Source: Pyxidicoccus trucidator
GTDB lineage: Bacteria; Myxococcota; Myxococcia; Myxococcales; Myxococcaceae
DNA length: 64,000 nucleotides
Assembly (NCBI RefSeq): GCF_010894435.1
Contig: NZ_JAAIXZ010000002.1
Coordinates: 186,001 to 250,000 of the forward strand
Direction: 5' to 3'
A program made the translations under genes and the position numbers. The notes under the pieces were generated by a model, which was not told the origin of the DNA, made no database searches, and saw nothing but the letters and a program-made list of their open reading frames with translations. This document shows, piece by piece, positions 46,169-57,906 of the stretch; the first letter of the stretch is position 1; each line of letters starts with the position of its first letter.

Positions 46169-46663
46169 TCAGACGATGCGCTTCCCCTTGACGAAGTCGA
46201 GGCCCAGCGGGTTGCCACGGAAGTGGATGGGGTCCAGCATCACCTTGCGGATTCGCCAGCCCTCGGCCGTCTTCTCCAGGTCGTGCGTGTAGCGGATGAC
46301 GATGGTCCACTCCTGCTGGGTGCCCCCCGCCATGAAGAAGTGGGCGACATCCGCGTAGGCCATCACCTGGGCCTCGGTGCCATTCTTGAAGTGGGTCCTC
46401 ACGGTGTTGGCCGTGGCGTGCTGGACCCGCGTGAAGGCAGAGAGGGCGTTGCCGCCCAGCTTGCCCATCTCCTCCCGCGCAATGGTGATGGGCTCGCCCT
46501 CGAAGAGCCGGCTGTAGTCCGCGGTGACCTGCGGCGTGAAGACATTCACCCAGCGGCTCCAGTCTCCCGTGTCCTTGCCGAAGTCGATGGCCTGCCCGTA
46601 CTCGGCCACCAGCTCCTGGATGGCAATCCAATCCAGCGTGTACTGGAGATCCTGTGTCTTCAT
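46169..46663 (-). CDS. SnoaL-like/NTF2-fold protein
   Basis: Start 46663 has GGAGGT spaced 8 bases. The 164-aa protein begins MKTQDLQYTLDWIAIQELVA and has the NTF2-like layout: helix EYGQAIDFGKDTGDWSRWVN, then VFTPQVTADYS, and a long beta-sheet with HFKNGTEAQVMAYADVAHFF and WTIVIRYTHDLEKTAEGWRI. This matches SnoaL_4-type proteins, which include dehydratases, cyclases and hydroxylases of aromatic or polyketide compounds. No catalytic residue can be fixed. It is upstream of PAP2 in the same orientation but 48 bp away, so it may be the first gene of that operon. Confidence 0.85.
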   Translation of the reverse strand: MKTQDLQYTLDWIAIQELVAEYGQAIDFGKDTGDWSRWVNVFTPQVTADYSRLFEGEPITIAREEMGKLGGNALSAFTRVQHATANTVRTHFKNGTEAQVMAYADVAHFFMAGGTQQEWTIVIRYTHDLEKTAEGWRIRKVMLDPIHFRGNPLGLDFVKGKRIV

Positions 46664-46711
46664 TTCGGTGCACCTCCGCGAGGAGCCCGCAGCTTCCAAC
46701 GAAAGGACTCT

Positions 46712-47608
46712 CTACGAAAGAGAAGGTGGCTGCGCTCCGGCCGCGTGGGGTGGCGAAGCCCGCCACGCGCTCCGGCGCGCCTGGAGGCGTGGGTACACGG
46801 CGCGGAAGACGGCGAACCACAGCGCGCCCGCGACGAGGTCGACGGCGTAGTGGTACCGCAGCACCAGCGTGGACAGCACGATGGCCACGGCGACAGGCAG
46901 CAGCACCTTGAAGCGCCGGGGATGTTCGAGCCGGTCATGCTCCAGCAGCACGAGGGTGATGTACGTGTGCAGGCTGGGGAAGATGTCGTAGGCCGACGAG
47001 CCACCCGCTACGACGGCCGCATTCAGTCCGGTGAGCCACCCACCTTCGATGGGCACGGTGAAGAGCGCGGGGAAGGCCACCGCGGGTCCGAGCCCGGGCA
47101 GGAGGTAGTAGCCGGCGATGCCCGGCACATACGCGGAGAACACCTGGGTGAAGAAGCGCTCCGCCCGCGCGCGAGGGCCGAGGACGGCCCACGCCATCGC
47201 CAGGTGCAGGTACGCGTGGAACGCGAGGTAGCTCGCGCTGAAGACGTCGTTCACCCACGGCGTGCTCCACCGCTGGAGCCAGGCTGAAGGCGTGACGCCG
47301 AACACGAACACGTCGGCCGCCAACAGCCACCCGTCGCGCGCTGGCAGCCCGAGCGCGGGAATCGTGTGCTTCACCGACGCGTAGAAGAAGAAGGTCACGG
47401 CATAGGCGAGCAGCAGCCGCACGCGGAACGCATGCGCGAAGCTCTCTCCACGCGCGAGCAATGCCACGCCGACCACGAACAGGACCGTCGCGCCGAGCGC
47501 CTGCGACGTGATGGGAGCACCGGCGCCCGCGACAAGCAGGAGCGCCACGGAGAGTGCCGCGCCGAAGGAGGCCAGCAGCACCTCGTGCAGGTACAGCCGC
47601 TCAGGCAT
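46712..47608 (-). CDS. PAP2 superfamily membrane phosphatase (AUR1-like)
   Basis: A 298-aa multi-span membrane protein. The PAP2 core is present: PSLHTYITLVLLE (motif 2 with His) and RYHYAVDLVAGALWF (motif 3 with His and Asp). The first PAP2 motif is less clear, as in the AUR1/inositol-phosphoceramide-synthase-like branch. These enzymes act on lipid phosphates, producing diacylglycerol or exchanging head groups. The downstream end overlaps no gene, but the upstream desaturase gene overlaps its start by 8 bp (47601-47608), so the two are translationally coupled. This makes a lipid-synthesis role likely. Confidence 0.88.
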   Translation of the reverse strand: MPERLYLHEVLLASFGAALSVALLLVAGAGAPITSQALGATVLFVVGVALLARGESFAHAFRVRLLLAYAVTFFFYASVKHTIPALGLPARDGWLLAADVFVFGVTPSAWLQRWSTPWVNDVFSASYLAFHAYLHLAMAWAVLGPRARAERFFTQVFSAYVPGIAGYYLLPGLGPAVAFPALFTVPIEGGWLTGLNAAVVAGGSSAYDIFPSLHTYITLVLLEHDRLEHPRRFKVLLPVAVAIVLSTLVLRYHYAVDLVAGALWFAVFRAVYPRLQARRSAWRASPPHAAGAQPPSLS

Positions 47609-48530
47609 CCGGGGTGGCGGACCTCGCCGTGCGCTGAAGCGAGCCGGAGACGACGCCGCGCACGAACGAGAAGTAGGACGGGATGAAGGGGGCGCCCTGG
47701 GCGATGAGCTCGGCGCGCAGGGTGCGGTGCAGCTCGGGCAGGTTGTACCAGGGCACGCGCGGGTAGAGGTGGTGCTCCAGGTGGTAGTTCTCGTTGCACA
47801 TGAAGAAGCGCGTCACCGGGTTGGACAGGATGGTGCGCGAGCCCCGGACGGGGTGGTTGCTCTCCGGGAGGAACGTGTGCTGGCTCATCCCCCGGATGTT
47901 CACGAGCGTGTTGATGACGAGCATGGGAATCACCCACGCGTGGACCAGCACCGCCCCGGGGACGAAGACCACCGCGAGCGCGGCGCCCACCGCGAGCAGG
48001 GCCACTTCCAGCTCGATCCACCGCCGCTCGGACGACGTCCCATGCCGCCAGCCGAGGATGGGAATCATGGTGATGTACGCGGGGTAGCCGAGCAGCAGCC
48101 GCCCCACATGCATCAGCATCTCCAGCCAGCGGCGCCCGGTGTAGTTGCCGTAGTGGTCCGGGTCCTTCCCGCCGCCCAGGTCGACGTGGTGCCGCAGGTG
48201 GAGCACCTTGTAGGCCGCGAAGTTCTGGAGCACGGGCAGCGCGCACGCGATGCCCCCGAGCCGGTTGAGCCACCGCCGGCGCGAGAGGCTCCCGTGCACG
48301 GCCTCGTGGGTGAACAGGCTGATGCCGTGCAGCGCCGCCGCGGCGATGAGGTACAGCCCAGCGCGCGCGAGCCACACGGAGAGCGAGCTGTCCGCCGCCA
48401 GCCTGACTGACAGCGCGGCCGCGACTCCGTAGAGCGCGACGAACAGGAAGAGCCGGGGAACGTGCCGGGCGTCGACCTGCTCCAGCGTGCGCAACCGGGC
48501 GGGGGTGAGGGATTCTGTCGCAAGCGGCAT
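47601..48530 (-). CDS. Membrane fatty acid desaturase
   Basis: Start 48530 (MPLATESLTPARLRTLEQVD) gives 309 aa. Three histidine boxes are present in the right order: HEAVHGS, HLRHH and, after three helices, NYHLEHH, the signature of di-iron membrane desaturases/hydroxylases. The last box context, FFMCNENYHLEHHLYPRVPW, is family-typical. It acts on acyl chains of lipids or acyl carrier/CoA esters. Its 3' end overlaps the PAP2 gene by 8 bp. It is divergent by 71 bp from the DUF3419 gene, so the two sides of the locus may share a control region. Confidence 0.92.
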   Translation of the reverse strand: MPLATESLTPARLRTLEQVDARHVPRLFLFVALYGVAAALSVRLAADSSLSVWLARAGLYLIAAAALHGISLFTHEAVHGSLSRRRWLNRLGGIACALPVLQNFAAYKVLHLRHHVDLGGGKDPDHYGNYTGRRWLEMLMHVGRLLLGYPAYITMIPILGWRHGTSSERRWIELEVALLAVGAALAVVFVPGAVLVHAWVIPMLVINTLVNIRGMSQHTFLPESNHPVRGSRTILSNPVTRFFMCNENYHLEHHLYPRVPWYNLPELHRTLRAELIAQGAPFIPSYFSFVRGVVSGSLQRTARSATPDA

Positions 48531-48601
48531 GGCTGTTCGGATAGAGGGACCATGCCATACCGTCGGCGCTTCCGTCGACGCCACCGCCGCCCCGCCTGCC
48601 C

Positions 48602-49576
48602 GTGACCTCAACGCCGTACCGACTGAAGTTCGCTGTCGTTCGTGAAGACCCGGAGCTGGAGCTGGCGCTTGTCGCACGCACGAAGGCCCGGGCCGTCCTC
48701 ACGGTGGCTTCCGGCGGGTGCACCCTCCTCACGCTCGCGCGGCGTCACCCCGAGCTGGAGCTGGTCGGCTTCGACTTCAACCCGCGCCAGCTCGCTCACG
48801 TGCGGGAGAAGGCCGGTGGCCTCGGCGCTGTGCCCTTGGCCCGGTTCAACGTCGGAGACGCGGACCCCACGGGCCTGAACCAGCGCGGCGAGTTCGAGGG
48901 ACTCTTCCGCACGCTCCGCCACTTCCTCGAGGAGTTCGTCGCCCCGGCACGGGAGCTGGCCACGTTCTTCGAGCCATCCACACCCGACACGGAGCGGAGC
49001 ACGCTGCGCGCCCGCTGGTTCGCCTCGCCATACTGGCCGGTGGCGTTCGAGCTGGCCCTCGCGTCCCCATTCCTTCACGCCATGTTCGGTCCGGCGGCGA
49101 CGCAGCACGCGGCGCCCGGCTCGTACCCCGGCTACTTCCAGGCCGTGTTCGAGCGGGGACTCCAGCGGGCGGACGCGCCGCGCAATCCGTTCCTCCAGCA
49201 CGTGCTGCTCGGCGCGTACCGTCCCGAGGACGCGCCGGAGTACCTGCGCGCTCAGCAGCCCGTGGTGCTCACGCTGGTGGAAGGCTCGCTGCCCGATGTC
49301 CCTGGGCTGGGGCGCTTCGACGTCGTCTCGCTCTCCAATATCTTCGACTGGTCGGACGACTCGCTCGTGGCGAGCTGGGTCGCGCTGCTCTCCCGCGAGG
49401 CCCGGCCGGGCTGCGCGGTGCTGCTCCGGCAGCTCAACAATCAGCGCAACCTCCGGCGCTTCTTCGAGCCGGCCTTCGAGTTCGACGACGCGCTGGGGGC
49501 GGAGCTGCTGGCGAAGGACCGCAGCCTCTTCTACGAGCGCATCGAGGTCGGCTTCCGGCGGGCTGCGCGCACATGA
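48602..49576 (+). CDS. DUF3419/BtaA-like aminocarboxypropyl transferase
   Basis: Starts at GTG 48602 in a 71-bp divergent gap. The 324-aa protein has a SAM-binding fold of the BtaA type: VLTVASGGCTLLTLA with glycine-rich motif I at ~34-46 and the acidic DFNPRQLAHV at ~58-67, where many SAM enzymes have an acidic residue after a beta strand. DVVSLSNIFDWSDD is a motif IV-like region. BtaA transfers the 3-amino-3-carboxypropyl group of SAM to diacylglycerol, the first step of betaine-lipid synthesis. The second enzyme of that pathway (BtaB methyltransferase) is not seen here; a GNAT acyltransferase gene follows, overlapping by 4 bp. Confidence 0.85.
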   Translation: MTSTPYRLKFAVVREDPELELALVARTKARAVLTVASGGCTLLTLARRHPELELVGFDFNPRQLAHVREKAGGLGAVPLARFNVGDADPTGLNQRGEFEGLFRTLRHFLEEFVAPARELATFFEPSTPDTERSTLRARWFASPYWPVAFELALASPFLHAMFGPAATQHAAPGSYPGYFQAVFERGLQRADAPRNPFLQHVLLGAYRPEDAPEYLRAQQPVVLTLVEGSLPDVPGLGRFDVVSLSNIFDWSDDSLVASWVALLSREARPGCAVLLRQLNNQRNLRRFFEPAFEFDDALGAELLAKDRSLFYERIEVGFRRAART

Positions 49577-50493
49577 GCGGCGTGCGGTACGTGGTTCTCC
49601 GTCCCGACACGCTCGGGCCCTATGTCGAGCGGCTCCGGCGGCTGGAGCAGGGCATCCTCTATCCGCTCGCGGATGGGGCCGACCACTTCTTCATCGACCA
49701 CGGGCCGGAGTACCACCCGTTCTTCTCGTCCATGGGGGACGCGTACTTCCTGCTCGCCCTGCGCGGTGACGAGCTGCTGGGCTCGGTGACCGGGGTGGCC
49801 CGTCAGGTCTTCCACGGCACGCGCTCGCTGGACGCGCTCTACATCTGCGACCTCAAGGTGGCGCAGGCCGCACGCGGCACGGGGCTCTCGCGGAGGCTCA
49901 TCTTCCAGGGGCTCACACACCTGTTCCGCATCCCCGAGCTGCGCCGTACCCGGTTCCTGTATGGCGCCGCCATGCGAGGGGCACGGGGAGACGTGATGCG
50001 CACTGCGCGGGGGTGGAATCCACTGCGGCTGGGCAGGCCGGCGAGTCGGCTTGCGCTCTACTTCGTGCCTCCCTCGAAGCTCGCGGAGCTGGACCCGCGA
50101 GGTGGGCCCGAGCGTCCCCTCGGCGATGGGCTTCGCCTGGGACCCGCCCCCGGGCGAAGGCTCCAAGGTTCGGGCTGGTGCACCACGGCGGGGAGCAAGG
50201 ACCTGCAGCGGCTCTCGACGCGAAGTGCCTGGCCGCTCGTCCACCTGGCGGCGTCCCCCGAGGCCTGGCCGCACGGCTGGGCGGCGTACCTTCGCGCATG
50301 TGGCGCGGAGCTGGCGGAGCGGAGCGGGGACGCGCTGGCCTGCTTCAGCATCGACGAGCGGCTGGAGGACCATGTCGGCTGGCTGCGGGGCGCGGGCGTG
50401 GCCCCCGACTCGGTGTGTACCGTCTATTCTCTCGACCTCACCTTCCCGGTAGAAGCGCCAGCATGGGTGCACCTTCCCTCGTCCGAAATCTGA
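49573..50493 (+). CDS. GNAT-fold acyltransferase
   Basis: The ATG at 49573 overlaps the DUF3419 stop (ATGA), indicating coupling. The 306-aa protein contains the GNAT motif A region at ~90-110: ALYICDLKVAQAARGTGLSR, with the R-G-x-G-L pattern that binds CoA pyrophosphate. It is much longer than a simple GNAT; the C-terminal ~130 residues (from RPLGDGLRLGPAPGRRLQGS) look like a second alpha/beta lobe of unknown origin. It likely acylates an amine. In this context the amine could belong to the product of the DUF3419 enzyme. The end overlaps the next gene by 31 bp. Confidence 0.8.
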   Translation: MSGVRYVVLRPDTLGPYVERLRRLEQGILYPLADGADHFFIDHGPEYHPFFSSMGDAYFLLALRGDELLGSVTGVARQVFHGTRSLDALYICDLKVAQAARGTGLSRRLIFQGLTHLFRIPELRRTRFLYGAAMRGARGDVMRTARGWNPLRLGRPASRLALYFVPPSKLAELDPRGGPERPLGDGLRLGPAPGRRLQGSGWCTTAGSKDLQRLSTRSAWPLVHLAASPEAWPHGWAAYLRACGAELAERSGDALACFSIDERLEDHVGWLRGAGVAPDSVCTVYSLDLTFPVEAPAWVHLPSSEI

Positions 50494-51167
50494 AGCTGCG
50501 CCGCTACATCGCCGGGCTCAAGGCGGAGTGGAATGCGCTGGATATGCCCTACCTGCGTTCGCTGAGGGACGGCTCGTTCGAGCGCGAGGACTTCCTCGAG
50601 ACCCAGGTCCACTTCTTCGCCGCGGTGGCGCACTTCTCGCGGCCGATGGCCATCCTCGCCAGCCGCCTGCCCCGGCCCGACCAGCGCCTGCCGCTGGTGG
50701 AGAACATGTTCGACGAGCACGGGCGGGGGAATCTGGGCCACGGCCATGAGCGCACCTTCCTGGTGCTCCTCGAACGGCTCGGCGTGGTGGTGGGCCGGGC
50801 CAGTCGCACACCCTGGCCGGAGGTGCGCGCCTTCAACGCCGCGCTGACGGGCCTTGCCGCGTTCGACACGCCGCTCACGGGGCTCGCGGTGTTCGGCATC
50901 ATCGAGGACCTGTTCAGCGGCATCTCGCTGGAGCTGGGACGCGGCATCGTCGCTCGCGGTTGGCTGGAGGCCGAGGAGGTGACGCACTACCCCACGCACG
51001 CCACGCTCGACGAGGAGCACGCGGAAGGCTTCTACCGCCAGCTCGACGGGCCGTATGGAGAGGACCCTCGCACCGAGGAGGAAATCGAGCAGGGCCTCGT
51101 CCTGGGAGGACACCTCTTCCTGCGTCTCTACGAAGACCTCTACCGCGCGCGTGGGCGCCGCGACTGA
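50463..51167 (+). CDS. Haem-oxygenase-like diiron protein
   Basis: A 234-aa all-helical protein starting [20 protein letters not shown], its start 31 bp inside the previous gene. The pattern fits the haem-oxygenase-like diiron oxidase (HDO) group: candidate metal ligands Glu in [15 protein letters not shown] (~46), the [20 protein letters not shown] region (~80-99), Glu ~148 in [11 protein letters not shown] and H179-x3-D183-x2-H186 in [14 protein letters not shown]. These are positions where known HDO enzymes coordinate two irons. Known members cleave C-C bonds, oxidise amines or desaturate fatty acids. It is the last gene of a three-gene overlap cluster, so it likely modifies the same lipid. 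Confidence 0.82.
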
Positions 51168-53886: not shown

Positions 53887-54783
53887 TCAGCGGAACGCCA
53901 GTCCGACGAGTGGGAGGGACACCATGGCCACGGTGGCGGTGATGGCGGCAGCCACGCGGACCACCATGCGCCGCGAGCCGGGCGGCGCGGGCCGTGTCAG
54001 CACCACGCCCAGGGCCGCCAGCGCGGGCAGCAACAGCCACGGGTCCACGCGCAGGCCCACCGCCTCCAGTCCGAGCGGGGCCATCGCCAGCGTGAGCGCA
54101 TTCAGCGCCACGATGCACCACGCGGCGCGCTCACCGCCCACCCGCGCGGGGAGCGTGAGCTTCCGGCTCTCACGGTCGGACGGCTCGTCGGGCAGCGCGG
54201 TGGCGATGGCGCAGGCCAGGTGCGTCGGCAGCAGGCACGCGATGAGCCACCACGGGAAGCGGCCGAGGTCTCCTCCCTGCGCCAGATAGCCGTAGAGCGG
54301 GAGGATGCCGCTCACGCCCACCATCTGCAGGAACTCACCGCCGCCCCGGTAGGACAGCCGCAGCGGCGGATAGCTGTAGGCCCACAGCAGCGCGAGCGCT
54401 CCCATCGCCAGAGGCACGAGCAGTGGCACTCCCCGCGTCACCGCGAGCCCCGTGGACACCGCCAGCAGTCCTCCGGCGCAGACGAGGGCGGCGGTGCCAA
54501 TCGCTCGGGGCGAGAGCCGCCCTTCCACCAGCACGCGAGAGCCGCCGGAGAACAGGGTGGCCGTCTGGTTGCGGCGGTCCGTCTCCTGGTCCGCCCAGTC
54601 GTTGGCGTAGACGATGAAGAGCTGGTCGAGCAGCCCGAAGAGCTGGACGCAGAGCAGCGTCCCCAGGTCCAGCGGGCGCCCCATCAACCGGCTCGCGACG
54701 AACTGTCCGAGTAGCAGCGGGAGCGCGATGTAGGACTGCGAGGGCAGCCGCGAGGCCTGGAGCCAGGCCCTGAGGGCCGTCAT
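53887..54783 (-). CDS. UbiA family prenyltransferase 1
   Basis: A 298-aa protein with eight to nine predicted helices. The two Asp-rich motifs are NDWADQETDR (61-70; NDxxDxxxD) and DEPSDRESRK (199-208; DxxxD), the ion-diphosphate binding sites of UbiA/MenA-type enzymes. The MenA-like segment PPLRLSYRGGGEFLQMVG is also present. It should transfer a prenyl group to an acceptor in the membrane. Its ATG overlaps the stop of the unknown protein upstream (ATGA) and its end is 7 bp from the lycopene cyclase gene, so all four genes form one operon. Whether it makes menaquinone or elongates a carotenoid is unknown. Confidence 0.9.
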   Translation of the reverse strand: MTALRAWLQASRLPSQSYIALPLLLGQFVASRLMGRPLDLGTLLCVQLFGLLDQLFIVYANDWADQETDRRNQTATLFSGGSRVLVEGRLSPRAIGTAALVCAGGLLAVSTGLAVTRGVPLLVPLAMGALALLWAYSYPPLRLSYRGGGEFLQMVGVSGILPLYGYLAQGGDLGRFPWWLIACLLPTHLACAIATALPDEPSDRESRKLTLPARVGGERAAWCIVALNALTLAMAPLGLEAVGLRVDPWLLLPALAALGVVLTRPAPPGSRRMVVRVAAAITATVAMVSLPLVGLAFR

Positions 54784-55505
54784 GTCGGGCTCCCGCGTGA
54801 CAGCCCCAGCCGACGCGCGGCCTCCGTGCGCAGGTCGGCGAAGGGCCGGTCCCACCGGGGTTCTCCGTCCTGGCGCCACGCCTTCACCGGGATGAGGTCC
54901 TCCCGGGCAAGTGCCTCGTGGAGTCGCGCTTCCTCGTCGGGCTCCCGTGAGAAGCCGAAGGGATTGCGGAACTCCGTGCCCCGCAGCCGCGAGTACTTCT
55001 CATCGTTGCTGGCGACGAGGGCGAGCAGCTCCCCCCGACGGCCTTCGAGGTATTCGAGGAAGGACGCATCGAAGGGGCGAATGGTGGCGCGTTGGGCGGG
55101 CTCGCGCGTCACCCAGCGGGCCCAGTCGTAGCCGAAGAGGAAGTCATGCGCGTAGCGGAAGCGCAGCGTGGAGCGGGCGCCGAAGCCGTGGCACAGCCGC
55201 ACCACCCGGTGCGTGAAGGCCTCCATGTCGGTGGGCTCCCCGGCATCCCACAGGCAGCGGGCCGGGTACTCCAGGTCCCAGAAGATGTTCTCCGGGAAGT
55301 CCGCCGCGAGCGCCTCGACGATGTCGCAGAGGCCTTCCGTGAAGGCCCGCAGCCGTGCCTCGTCACCCTGACCTTCCGTCACCCGCTCGGCCAGCTCGCG
55401 AGGCGTGGGCGCGCGAGCCCGGTCCGGCGCGAGCGAGGCCCGGGCACCGAGCAGCGGCTCCAGTCGCTCCAGCCGGGCGACCAGCTCGTTCTCGAGCCGC
55501 CTCAT
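54780..55505 (-). CDS. Unknown protein, 241 aa, between two prenyltransferase genes
   Basis: MRRLENELVARLERLEPLLG starts this soluble protein; the start overlaps the stop of the second UbiA gene and its stop overlaps the start of the first. It is Trp/Phe-rich with AADFPENIFWDLEYPARCLW and LRFRYAHDFLFGYDWARWVT, patterns I do not recognise. No signal peptide, no membrane segment, no metal motif that stands out. Its position as the middle gene of a four-gene coupled operon makes a role in the same pathway likely, perhaps as a chaperone or carrier for a hydrophobic intermediate. Confidence 0.7.
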   Translation of the reverse strand: MRRLENELVARLERLEPLLGARASLAPDRARAPTPRELAERVTEGQGDEARLRAFTEGLCDIVEALAADFPENIFWDLEYPARCLWDAGEPTDMEAFTHRVVRLCHGFGARSTLRFRYAHDFLFGYDWARWVTREPAQRATIRPFDASFLEYLEGRRGELLALVASNDEKYSRLRGTEFRNPFGFSREPDEEARLHEALAREDLIPVKAWRQDGEPRWDRPFADLRTEAARRLGLSRGSPT

Positions 55506-56461
55506 GCCGACGCTCCGAGCGGGCCCAGGCCGCCGAGCAGGAGCAGGCCGCACAGGGCGAGCGTCCCCCACCAGATGGCCCGGTGCAGCTCCAGCTTGTA
55601 TGCGGACTGCGCGCCAAAGGCATTCGTCACCGCGCCCGGGCTGCGCTTCCAGGCACGGGCGGCGAAGCACAGCACCACCGCGGCAGCGGGGACGACGGTG
55701 ACGAAGCGCGGTGCCTCGCGAGCCATCCAGGGCGCCGCGAGCCAGAGGAGCGCGCCCAGCACCAGCAGGGCCTCCGCGCCCCGACGCGCCGCCGCGTTGC
55801 CCCGGAGCGAAGCCCAGGTGCGCTTGCCTCCGGCGCGGTCGCTCTCCTCGTCGGACAGGCCGCTGGCCAGGGCGCTCGACAGAGACATCGCGAGCAGCCC
55901 CGGCCACAGCGCCACGAGCCCGGCGGGAGCCCACTGCCCGCACTGCGCATAGGCATGGAGCGCGGGGAGCACACCTCCGACGCCCACCATCTCCAGCAGC
56001 TCGCCGCCGCCCCGGTAGTTGAGGCGCAGCGGCGGCAGCGTGTAGGCGATGAAGACGAACAGGGCCAGCGCGGCGAGGGGCAGCAGCAACGGCCGTTCCA
56101 GCGCGGGGCCCGCCACGGCGGCCACCAGCAGCGCCACGACTCCGGCGCCAAGTCCGGCGGCGAGCAGGGCGCCCGCGGGGAGGATGCCGTCCGGAATCGT
56201 CTTGGGCGAGCCGGCCTGGGGGAACATGCGGCGCTTGAGCGTGTCCACCGGGCGGTCGCCCCAGTCATTGAGCAGGACGATGAAGGCGACGTCCGCCAGC
56301 ATCCACAGCACGCCGAAGGTGAGCGCTCCCACGGAGATGCCACCCGCGTGGGCGGCACCTACGGCCTGCCCGAGGAGTGCGGGGACGAACACTTTCGGCC
56401 AGCTCGCGGGCTTGAGGGCGTACCACCACCGCTCACCTGGGCCCATTGACTCGACGCGCAT
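55502..56461 (-). CDS. UbiA family prenyltransferase 2
   Basis: Start 56461 has GGGGAG about 8 bases upstream. The 319-aa protein has about nine helices. The first motif is NDWGDRPVD (65-73) and the second is DEESDRAGGKR (204-214); the MenA-like PPLRLNYRGGGELLEMVG lies between. It is related to the first UbiA protein but clearly distinct, so the operon has two different prenyl-transfer enzymes rather than a recent duplicate. It is the first gene of the operon; upstream, 50 bp away, a glycosyltransferase gene ends in the same orientation. Confidence 0.9.
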   Translation of the reverse strand: MRVESMGPGERWWYALKPASWPKVFVPALLGQAVGAAHAGGISVGALTFGVLWMLADVAFIVLLNDWGDRPVDTLKRRMFPQAGSPKTIPDGILPAGALLAAGLGAGVVALLVAAVAGPALERPLLLPLAALALFVFIAYTLPPLRLNYRGGGELLEMVGVGGVLPALHAYAQCGQWAPAGLVALWPGLLAMSLSSALASGLSDEESDRAGGKRTWASLRGNAAARRGAEALLVLGALLWLAAPWMAREAPRFVTVVPAAAVVLCFAARAWKRSPGAVTNAFGAQSAYKLELHRAIWWGTLALCGLLLLGGLGPLGASA

Positions 56462-56511
56462 GTGTCCGCTCTCTCCCCGACGTCGAAGGTTCTGCCTCCT
56501 GAGGGGCAGCG

Positions 56512-57906
56512 TCAATGCTTCAGGCCCCACAACCGCCACACCCAGAACCGATGCAGCGGGCGCCCCTGGTAGCCGCTGACCAGCTCCACCGCGTCGCTCA
56601 TGGCGGTGAAGCGGTCCGTCAGCTCGTCGGGCGGTCCCGGGCCTCCCTCCTCCATCACCCACAGCACCTCCTGCCCGGGCGTGAGCGCGGGCGGCGGCCA
56701 CAGGTCGTACTGGCTGAACCTCGCCGGCGGGCCCGTGTGCGTGACGGCGCCCGCGTAGTAGGCCACCTGCGAGGCGAGCTGGTAGTCGGGCGCGTAGATG
56801 GCGGCCACGTTGCGTGCTTCCAGGCCGGGGAACAGTCGCTCAGGCGTGGCCAGCTCGCGCAGCACGCTCCAGCCATGCGTGCGCCAGAGCACCGTGTCGC
56901 GCTGCTCGACGCGCAGCACCGGGAAGAACACATGCGAGCCCACCGCCAGCACCACCGCCAGTCCCGAGACCGCGACGGCCCGCTGCCACACCGGGCGCAT
57001 GCCGGCCACGCCCACGCACGCGGCCACGTAGGCCGCCGCCGGCCAGTTGGCCTCGCCCGGCGTGCGCGCCGCCGCGTAACCGAAGAAGAGCAGCGGCACC
57101 GCCGCCGCCATGCGCAGCAGGAACTGCTCGCGGGGCCCTCGCACCGCGTACACCAGGGCGACGGGGAACAGCACCGGCCCGCCGAGCGCGAGCTGCCCCG
57201 CGAGGTACTGGCCGAAGCTGGCCCAGCCGCCGCGCCCGCCGAAGCCGTGGCGGAGCTGGAAGAGGAAGCCCACCCACTCGTGCCGTGCGTTCCACAGCAC
57301 CACCGGGACGAAGCACAGCAGGGCCAGCGCTCCGGTGAGCCAGGCCCCCCAGGGCAGCCTCCGCGCCCGCGCCGCCGTAGCGAGGAAGACCAGCCCCAGC
57401 AGCACCGCCGGATACTTCGACAGCAGCGCCAGCCCGCAGGCCAGCCCCGCCCAGACCCAGCGCTCGCGCCACAGCGCCCACAGCGCCAGCGTCCAGAAGA
57501 GCAGCAGCGGCGAGTCGGGCGTGGCCCACACCCCGGCCACCACGCCGGCCGGCACCACGCTCCACAGCGCCGCCGCGCGCCAGGCCACCTCGCGGTTGCC
57601 ATACACGTCGCGCGCCAGGCCCCACACCGCGGCCACCGTGCCCGCGCCACACAGCAGGGCCGTGCCCCGAAGGCCCAGCGCGGCGATGAGCCACGCCACC
57701 ATGGGGGGATGGTCGTAGTAGCCCCACGCGAGGTGCCGGGCCCATTGCCAGTAGTACGCCGTGTCGAAGTAGACGTCCGTGCCCAGGGACAGGGCGAGCC
57801 TGGCCACCATCGCCACGCCAAGCAGGGCGAGGCATGCCTTCATGCCAGGGCCAGCAGCGAGGGAGGGCGCAGGGGAGGGGGACGGCGTGCTCACGCCTTT
57901 GGACAA
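56512..57906 (-). CDS. ArnT/PMT-type GT39 glycosyltransferase
   Basis: A 464-aa multi-span protein (PMT_2 fold). The catalytic loop is FDTAYYWQWARHLAWGYYDH, with the acidic residue and aromatic-rich pattern of undecaprenyl-phosphate sugar transferases. After ~10 helices, the C-terminal half ends in a soluble domain (YDLWPPPALTPGQEVLWVME). These enzymes transfer sugar from a polyprenyl-phosphate donor to lipids or proteins at the outer face of the membrane. The start is uncertain: it begins at TTG 57906 with no SD, while GTG and ATG 57843 alternatives exist. It lies just upstream of the UbiA operon, in the same orientation. Confidence 0.88.
   Translation of the reverse strand: MSKGVSTPSPSPAPSLAAGPGMKACLALLGVAMVARLALSLGTDVYFDTAYYWQWARHLAWGYYDHPPMVAWLIAALGLRGTALLCGAGTVAAVWGLARDVYGNREVAWRAAALWSVVPAGVVAGVWATPDSPLLLFWTLALWALWRERWVWAGLACGLALLSKYPAVLLGLVFLATAARARRLPWGAWLTGALALLCFVPVVLWNARHEWVGFLFQLRHGFGGRGGWASFGQYLAGQLALGGPVLFPVALVYAVRGPREQFLLRMAAAVPLLFFGYAAARTPGEANWPAAAYVAACVGVAGMRPVWQRAVAVSGLAVVLAVGSHVFFPVLRVEQRDTVLWRTHGWSVLRELATPERLFPGLEARNVAAIYAPDYQLASQVAYYAGAVTHTGPPARFSQYDLWPPPALTPGQEVLWVMEEGGPGPPDELTDRFTAMSDAVELVSGYQGRPLHRFWVWRLWGLKH

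Follow-up and report, generated by a model that had tools for sequence, protein, structure and literature searches.

A conserved bacterial gene cassette encoding a BtaA-related protein, a tandem GNAT of predicted N-myristoyltransferase-like fold and a dimetal oxidase, with a proposed role in amphiphile synthesis

In a stretch of 64,000 nucleotides from the genome of Pyxidicoccus trucidator (NCBI RefSeq assembly GCF_010894435.1, contig NZ_JAAIXZ010000002.1, positions 186,001 to 250,000; in the following termed the window, with positions counted from its first letter), we have characterized a block of five genes whose three-gene core recurs in distant bacteria. This core encodes a DUF3419 protein (48602-49576, + strand), which is a remote homologue of BtaA and a proposed S-adenosylmethionine (SAM)-dependent 3-amino-3-carboxypropyl transferase, a tandem-GNAT protein (49573-50493, + strand; PF00583) with a predicted fold resembling N-myristoyltransferase (NMT) and a proposed function as long-chain acyl-CoA N-acyltransferase, and a member of the heme-oxygenase-like dimetal oxidase (HDO) superfamily (50463-51167, + strand; PF14518, Haem_oxygenas_2). 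From the gene content of the cassette, its conservation, the homologies and motifs of its proteins and the lack of a BtaB ortholog in the genome, we infer a pathway with its reactions, acceptor, order and product, in which aminocarboxypropyl transfer from SAM, long-chain N-acylation and dimetal oxidation would lead to an amphiphile. We assign a probability of about one half to this general scheme, whereas its form with diacylglycerol as acceptor, though a special case of it, is counted separately.

The conservation of the block is evident in 30 loci from Myxococcus/Pyxidicoccus and from two genera close to it (27 from the genus of the window, its own locus included, and three from the two related genera), each of which contains all five genes. 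In every one of them, the DUF3419 gene overlaps with the start of the GNAT gene by 4 bp in a stop-start arrangement (49573-49576, + strand). The two genes facing the core on the opposite strand, which encode a membrane protein of the fatty-acid desaturase/hydroxylase superfamily (47601-48530, - strand, with ATG 48530 as likely start) and a PAP2_3 superfamily membrane protein (46712-47608, - strand), overlap by 8 bp in the window as in all 30 loci. The GNAT and HDO genes share 31 bp (50463-50493, + strand) in 27 of the loci and are separated by a 3-bp gap in the remaining three, and the start codon of the HDO falls within the coding sequence for the conserved GNAT C-terminus. In these counts, the start of a gene was taken as the start codon closest to the aligned start. 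That overlap lengths are kept across 30 loci indicates that the overlaps are not a product of chance. The original prediction had described six genes with overlaps of 4, 31 and 8 bp, all of which are correct, and had regarded the genes as a single functional unit, in agreement with their being kept together in all 30 loci. The sixth, a SnoaL_4 gene (46169-46663, - strand, for which ATG 46663 is a likelier start than TTG 46699), does adjoin the PAP2 gene as proposed but does not belong to the conserved set. Among wide loci from these genera, 1 of 11 in one set and 2 of 12 in a second contain it, with the two sets overlapping in genomes, and we thus rejected it as a member. Being seen only in some Pyxidicoccus-like relatives, it is a neighbour of the block. 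As this gene is rare and the genes flanking the block vary between species, the unit consists of five genes, with desaturase-PAP2 facing DUF3419-GNAT-HDO. Since the flanks differ among Myxococcus species, the operon context yields no substrate.

The core itself extends far beyond these genera. A contig scan of 84,980 species genomes, queried with the GNAT alignment and able to detect only loci that hold two peptide patterns, yielded 26 loci. DUF3419 adjoins the GNAT in all 26 of these loci and the HDO does so in 25, the exception (L074) carrying its HDO on another contig of the same genome. Among the 26 is the gammaproteobacterium Hahella ganghwensis, whose DUF3419 gene is cut by the contig end. 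When 369 gammaproteobacterial genomes were searched with the Hahella HDO, three genomes (Hahella included) were identified, all of which contain the HDO beside DUF3419 and GNAT, in two cases in the order DUF3419-HDO-GNAT. A plasmid of Mycobacterium riyadhense carries the arrangement DUF3419-HDO-GNAT-MmpL, where the DUF3419, HDO and GNAT proteins match those of the window with pairwise E-values of 5e-16, 2e-46 and 9e-11, respectively. The presence of two gene orders in three phyla points to selected clustering and not just to inherited linkage. Plasmid searches with HDO, DUF3419 and GNAT revealed only one further phylum. Within the order of the window, DUF3419 was detected in 40 of 145 genomes, 36 of which also contain the GNAT, while in four (G088, G135, G136 and G138) neither GNAT nor HDO was found; in G135, the contig ends 10 bases past the DUF3419 gene. 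Outside this order, the full core is present in G538. The loci of the several surveys overlap in genomes, and our counts pertain to the loci surveyed rather than to every genome of the window's genus. Neither desaturase nor PAP2 was found beside the core in the 14 more distant of the 26 loci (L065-L078), where a single weak desaturase-like match is located about 5 kb from the core of L077. Since they were not found beside the more distant cores, the two proteins cannot be required for the core chemistry, in which the original prediction had given them a role, and are a lineage-specific addition.

BtaA is the SAM:diacylglycerol 3-amino-3-carboxypropyltransferase of betaine-lipid synthesis. The DUF3419 protein of the window matches the family profile PF11899 with 76.5 bits, well over the curated cut-off of 28.2, and an hhalign comparison aligns it with BtaA along 290 columns at 22% identity (probability 98.7, E 2.8e-16). 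Both share the motifs EDP, SGGC, D.N, DW, R and DRS..Y. The protein, which had been described as BtaA-like, is thus a whole-length homologue. Its AlphaFold2 model (pLDDT 92.8) displays a predicted class I SAM-binding fold. A comparison with solved structures by sequence gave no match, a Foldseek search with the model gave no match with an E-value of 0.001 or below, and VIA retrieved generic class I methyltransferases over about 145-170 of the 324 residues. CntL (7c9m), at Foldseek rank 10 with E 9.8e-3, is too weak a match to count. By homology, the protein likely catalyses an aminocarboxypropyl transfer.

For comparison with BtaA, we sampled 299 Pseudomonadota evenly and detected PF11899 in 23 of their genomes. 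In 22 of these genomes, the DUF3419 protein scores 327-395 bits and adjoins a BtaB-type methyltransferase with 280-375 bits (8 of these 22 loci were used to build the BtaB profile), whereas the remaining genome gives a fragment match of 39 bits. In a phylogenetic tree, ten BtaA proteins group on one branch (100/99), while 19 cassette proteins and the DUF3419 protein of locus L051 are located on the other side (with a program warning that the branches of L079 and L120 are long), and the window protein falls outside the clade of BtaA with an adjoining BtaB. No BtaB gene is located beside DUF3419 in the window, and a profile search of the whole 12.67-Mb genome, which holds DUF3419 at one locus only, gave eight partial matches, the best of which reaches 46 bits and covers 81 of 236 positions, but no ortholog. 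By clade and by partner, the protein is a relative of BtaA and not BtaA itself. The absence of BtaB noted in the original prediction is thereby supported, and no separate BtaB travels with the gene set elsewhere. Ordinary betaine-lipid synthesis with a BtaB encoded at a distant site would be in line with the family membership of DUF3419. We rejected such a hidden BtaB in view of the partial and generic nature of the methyltransferase matches and consider this explanation highly improbable, given also the score of 76 bits compared to 327-395 bits for 22 BtaA proteins and the absence of GNAT and HDO from the flanks of about 1.5 kb at all 23 pseudomonadotal DUF3419 loci. Because the window protein resides outside the BtaA clade and its middle part aligns poorly with BtaA, diacylglycerol, the acceptor of the original proposal, is at most a possible one.

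NMTs acylate protein N-termini. The GNAT was modelled with AlphaFold2 from 24 sequences (pLDDT 87.9, pTM 0.87; the loop at residues 142-150 is weak), and the predicted fold is that of an NMT. All 50 matches listed by Foldseek (E 2.5e-10 to 7.4e-9) and all 50 listed by VIA (Z 17.6-16.9, about 10% identity) are NMTs, and the VIA alignments cover 253-266 residues in the first 49 matches listed and 255 in the 50th. Superimposed on HsNMT1 (Z 17.6, 257 aligned residues, rmsd 3.6), the last residue of the predicted model, 306, reaches residue 496 of the HsNMT1 chain. In NMT, according to PMC7048800, the catalytic base is the C-terminal carboxylate of Gln496, and in a protein truncated by two residues Glu244 replaces this base with unchanged kcat, which shows that the base is replaceable. 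All 30 GNATs from Myxococcota, Gammaproteobacteria and Mycobacterium end with [ST][SNA][ED]I-stop, at identities down to 25%, and such a fixed extreme C-terminus is what would be expected from an NMT-like mechanism. The N-acylation that had been ascribed to the GNAT is made likelier by the predicted NMT fold. At the sequence level, none of the 24 GNAT members matches the NMT Pfam models PF01233 and PF02799 at E 5, and neither model has a match in the window's genome, although for PF02799 control genomes gave no match either. The likeness to NMT thus rests on the predicted structure and on the C-terminal end, and we describe the protein as resembling an NMT in prediction, not as one shown to be an NMT. 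The predicted fold match to an enzyme of protein N-termini could alternatively imply that the GNAT N-acylates proteins or peptides, with the cassette acting on a protein N-terminus or on a ribosomal peptide. We give very little credence to this possibility, which leaves DUF3419 and HDO unused and for which no conserved precursor or target gene is found among the called neighbours.

The HDO (PF14518, 62.8 bits compared to a cut-off of 28.9) keeps a candidate metal-ligand set of three histidines and three carboxylates, with E85, H95, E148, H179 and D183, as assigned by alignment, present in 22 of 22 proteins and H186 in 21. HrmI and SznF N-oxygenate amines. In profile searches, the closest solved relatives are CADD-type 4-aminobenzoate synthases (CADD, CT610, E 4.6e-11), HrmI (1.3e-8) and BesC (2.5e-7). 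Five designed pentatricopeptide chains in the same search were dismissed as artefacts in which no stretch passed individually, and none of the NCBIfam equivalogs matched the window protein. As summarized in a 2026 review (PMC13108848), about a dozen HDOs have been validated, which mostly act on fatty or amino acids and whose reactions encompass N-oxygenation, C-C cleavage, desaturation and rearrangements. In support of our scheme, the closest solved relatives of the window's HDO act on amino acids. The kinship with CADD-type enzymes, HrmI and BesC would be consistent with a small diffusible product, where the HDO would N-oxygenate an amine, the GNAT would acylate the hydroxylamine or amine and DUF3419 would add an aminocarboxypropyl arm, to yield a metal chelator or signal that is exported where MmpL is present. 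Aminocarboxypropyl transfer is known in metallophores (CntL, with the low-ranking match described above), and MmpL adjoins the cassette in Mycobacterium. Conversely, no TonB receptor or other metal-uptake gene was found among the subset of neighbours scanned. Moreover, a lipid is suggested by the membrane-bound desaturase and PAP2 that accompany the core in Myxococcus, and a long acyl chain by the NMT-like fold of the GNAT. We thus regard a diffusible product as rather unlikely.

Of the two lineage-specific partners, the desaturase (PF00487, FA_desaturase, 170 bits) retains intact histidine boxes HE..H and H..HH in 12 of 12 proteins. The PAP2 protein (PF14378, 52 bits) carries PSLH in 12 of 12 and HY.VD in 9 of 12, and LRYHYA.D is invariant in 12 aligned homologues. 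We take PSLH to be a feature of transferase-type PAP2_3 proteins such as AUR1, and for that reason the protein is not necessarily a phosphatase with a role in diacylglycerol supply. This bears on the original prediction in its literal form, where DUF3419 would generate diacylglyceryl-homoserine, the GNAT would N-acylate it and PAP2 and desaturase would supply and trim diacylglycerol, resulting in a triacylated homoserine membrane lipid. The acylated homoserine lipid had been offered there as a conjecture. The whole-length homology of DUF3419 to BtaA, the lack of a BtaB ortholog in the genome, the predicted NMT-like fold of the acyltransferase and the fact that all 30 loci from the three genera contain desaturase and PAP2 are in its favour. 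However, DUF3419 is placed outside the BtaA clade on a long branch and is shorter with a different middle, the core occurs without desaturase and PAP2, the latter is of the PSLH form and the HDO would be left without a clear task. We consider the literal form unlikely, albeit the most credible of the alternatives.

In the general scheme that we favour, DUF3419 would move the 3-amino-3-carboxypropyl group of SAM onto an acceptor, probably a lipid or another hydrophobic alcohol. The NMT-like tandem GNAT would then use a long-chain acyl-CoA to acylate the alpha-amine thus introduced, the C-terminal carboxylate of the GNAT itself serving as general base, and the HDO, with a diiron or Mn/Fe site and O2, would oxidise either the amino-acid-derived part or the acyl chain. 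Either of the latter two steps could come first. In Myxococcus and close relatives, desaturase and PAP2_3 protein might finish or feed a membrane product, while in the case of the Mycobacterium plasmid the product would be exported by the MmpL transporter. A more far-reaching version would combine a bacterial N-acyltransferase of NMT architecture and C-terminal-carboxylate catalysis with a BtaA-derived transferase and a diiron oxygenase to produce new oxidised N-acyl aminocarboxypropyl amphiphiles, spread horizontally among Myxococcota, Gammaproteobacteria and Mycobacterium; bacterial proteins of this kind may have a common origin with eukaryotic NMT. We put this version forward tentatively, as we would sooner expect it to fail as a whole than to hold.

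Several observations weigh against our interpretation. In the DUF3419 protein, approximately 50 residues at the N-terminus of BtaA have no counterpart, and the alignment is poor in its middle third. For the GNAT, no sequence-level link to NMT was found. Any other family would score below the last NMT match listed (Z 16.9), but differences within 1 Z count as ties, and further tandem GNATs could follow immediately after that match; moreover, a shared fold alone is no proof of long-chain acyl transfer. The HDO of L073 contains an Asn in place of the last His. Finally, the genes also occur apart. The DUF3419 protein of G138 (L051) groups with the cassette clade, and neither GNAT nor HDO was found in this genome, which is 86% complete. 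A lone NMT-like GNAT in G563 (L117:6397-7212) ends with TNEV, with no HDO found in its genome and no DUF3419 found adjacent to it, and, among seven plasmid records with this HDO type, of which one is the Mycobacterium cassette, the two Streptomyces records examined carry the HDO without DUF3419 or GNAT.

The surveys also revealed features in the surroundings of these genes. The lone GNAT of L117 adjoins a hybrid histidine kinase gene, and the HDOs of the two Streptomyces plasmids (L080 and L081) follow the gene of an EF-hand protein and are 60% identical to the mycobacterial one. On a plasmid of Streptomyces sp. Caat 7-52 (L082:5482-7172), a 'BtaA family' gene is flanked by a DoxX-like and a DUF2071 gene and followed downstream by a methyltransferase gene, which constitutes another DUF3419 context. 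A fourth gene shared among distant cassettes was not found among conserved neighbours. In an uncultured member of the Myxococcales (L075:6354-11126), an FAD amine-oxidase-type gene (PF01593, confirmed by Pfam) overlaps with the start of DUF3419, and SnoaL_2 and DoxX-like genes, the latter below cut-off, are placed between GNAT and HDO. In another (L067:10741-11493), a CarF-like lipid desaturase follows the cassette, and the genes at the upstream position of L067 and L070 are alike by eye only. In two gammaproteobacteria (L118:8903-9634 and L119:4910-5671), a protein of 243-253 residues without Pfam match, hydrophobic by eye and 65% identical between the two, is encoded next to the cassette, either directly upstream or in divergent orientation. 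The full five-gene block is also present, at 68-80% identity, in a record titled 'Comamonas sp. KCTC 72670' (L057), which is probably a mislabelled Myxococcus. Within the window, two UbiA prenyltransferase genes (53887-54783 and 55502-56539) surround a gene for a 241-residue protein without Pfam match (54780-55505); all three overlap and adjoin an open reading frame of 443 residues, and these genes (53887-57843, - strand) look like a separate small prenyl-lipid operon.

If our interpretation is correct, a pathway of three conserved genes that leads to a novel metabolite can be put to the test in the laboratory strain M. xanthus DK1622, the HDO subfamily gains a pathway context and the BtaA family a second task. 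NMT-type catalysis, with its C-terminal carboxylate and tandem GNAT architecture, would then have a bacterial counterpart, which bears on the origin of eukaryotic NMT. Although each protein falls into a known superfamily, we found no report of their combination in the open-licence part of PubMed Central, nor of a tie between this HDO subfamily and DUF3419 or of a bacterial NMT-like acyltransferase in such a cassette.

The cassette shares features with several known systems. The homospermidine lipids of M. xanthus (hsl genes) are likewise unusual amino-containing lipids of the same genus, but are proposed to originate from arginine via putrescine by a different gene cluster, with no DUF3419 in the available text of PMC9548883. 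As in the synthesis of ornithine, glutamine and glycine aminolipids (OlsB, GluB and GlsB), a fatty acyl chain would be joined to the amine of an amino acid, whereas these N-acyltransferases, as described in PMC11631085, share PF13444, which is matched by 0 of 24 cassette GNATs and is absent from the nine families matched by any of them. With NMT, the GNAT has in common the predicted tandem-GNAT fold and an invariant C-terminus that in the model falls at the place of the catalytic carboxylate (PMC7048800), from which it differs as a shorter bacterial protein of 10% identity and no NMT Pfam match whose acceptor is probably not a protein. With BtaA, the DUF3419 protein shares the whole-length profile match, the listed motifs and the predicted SAM-binding fold, but it belongs to a separate clade with far lower PF11899 scores (76 versus 327-395 bits), is shorter by the N-terminal 50 residues or so and has no BtaB partner. 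DtpC (PMC13232832) is a different HDO protein and does not represent the context described here. With CADD, HrmI and BesC, the cassette HDO shares PF14518 and the candidate set of three histidines and three carboxylates, while it defines a subfamily of its own that is tied to DUF3419 and GNAT.

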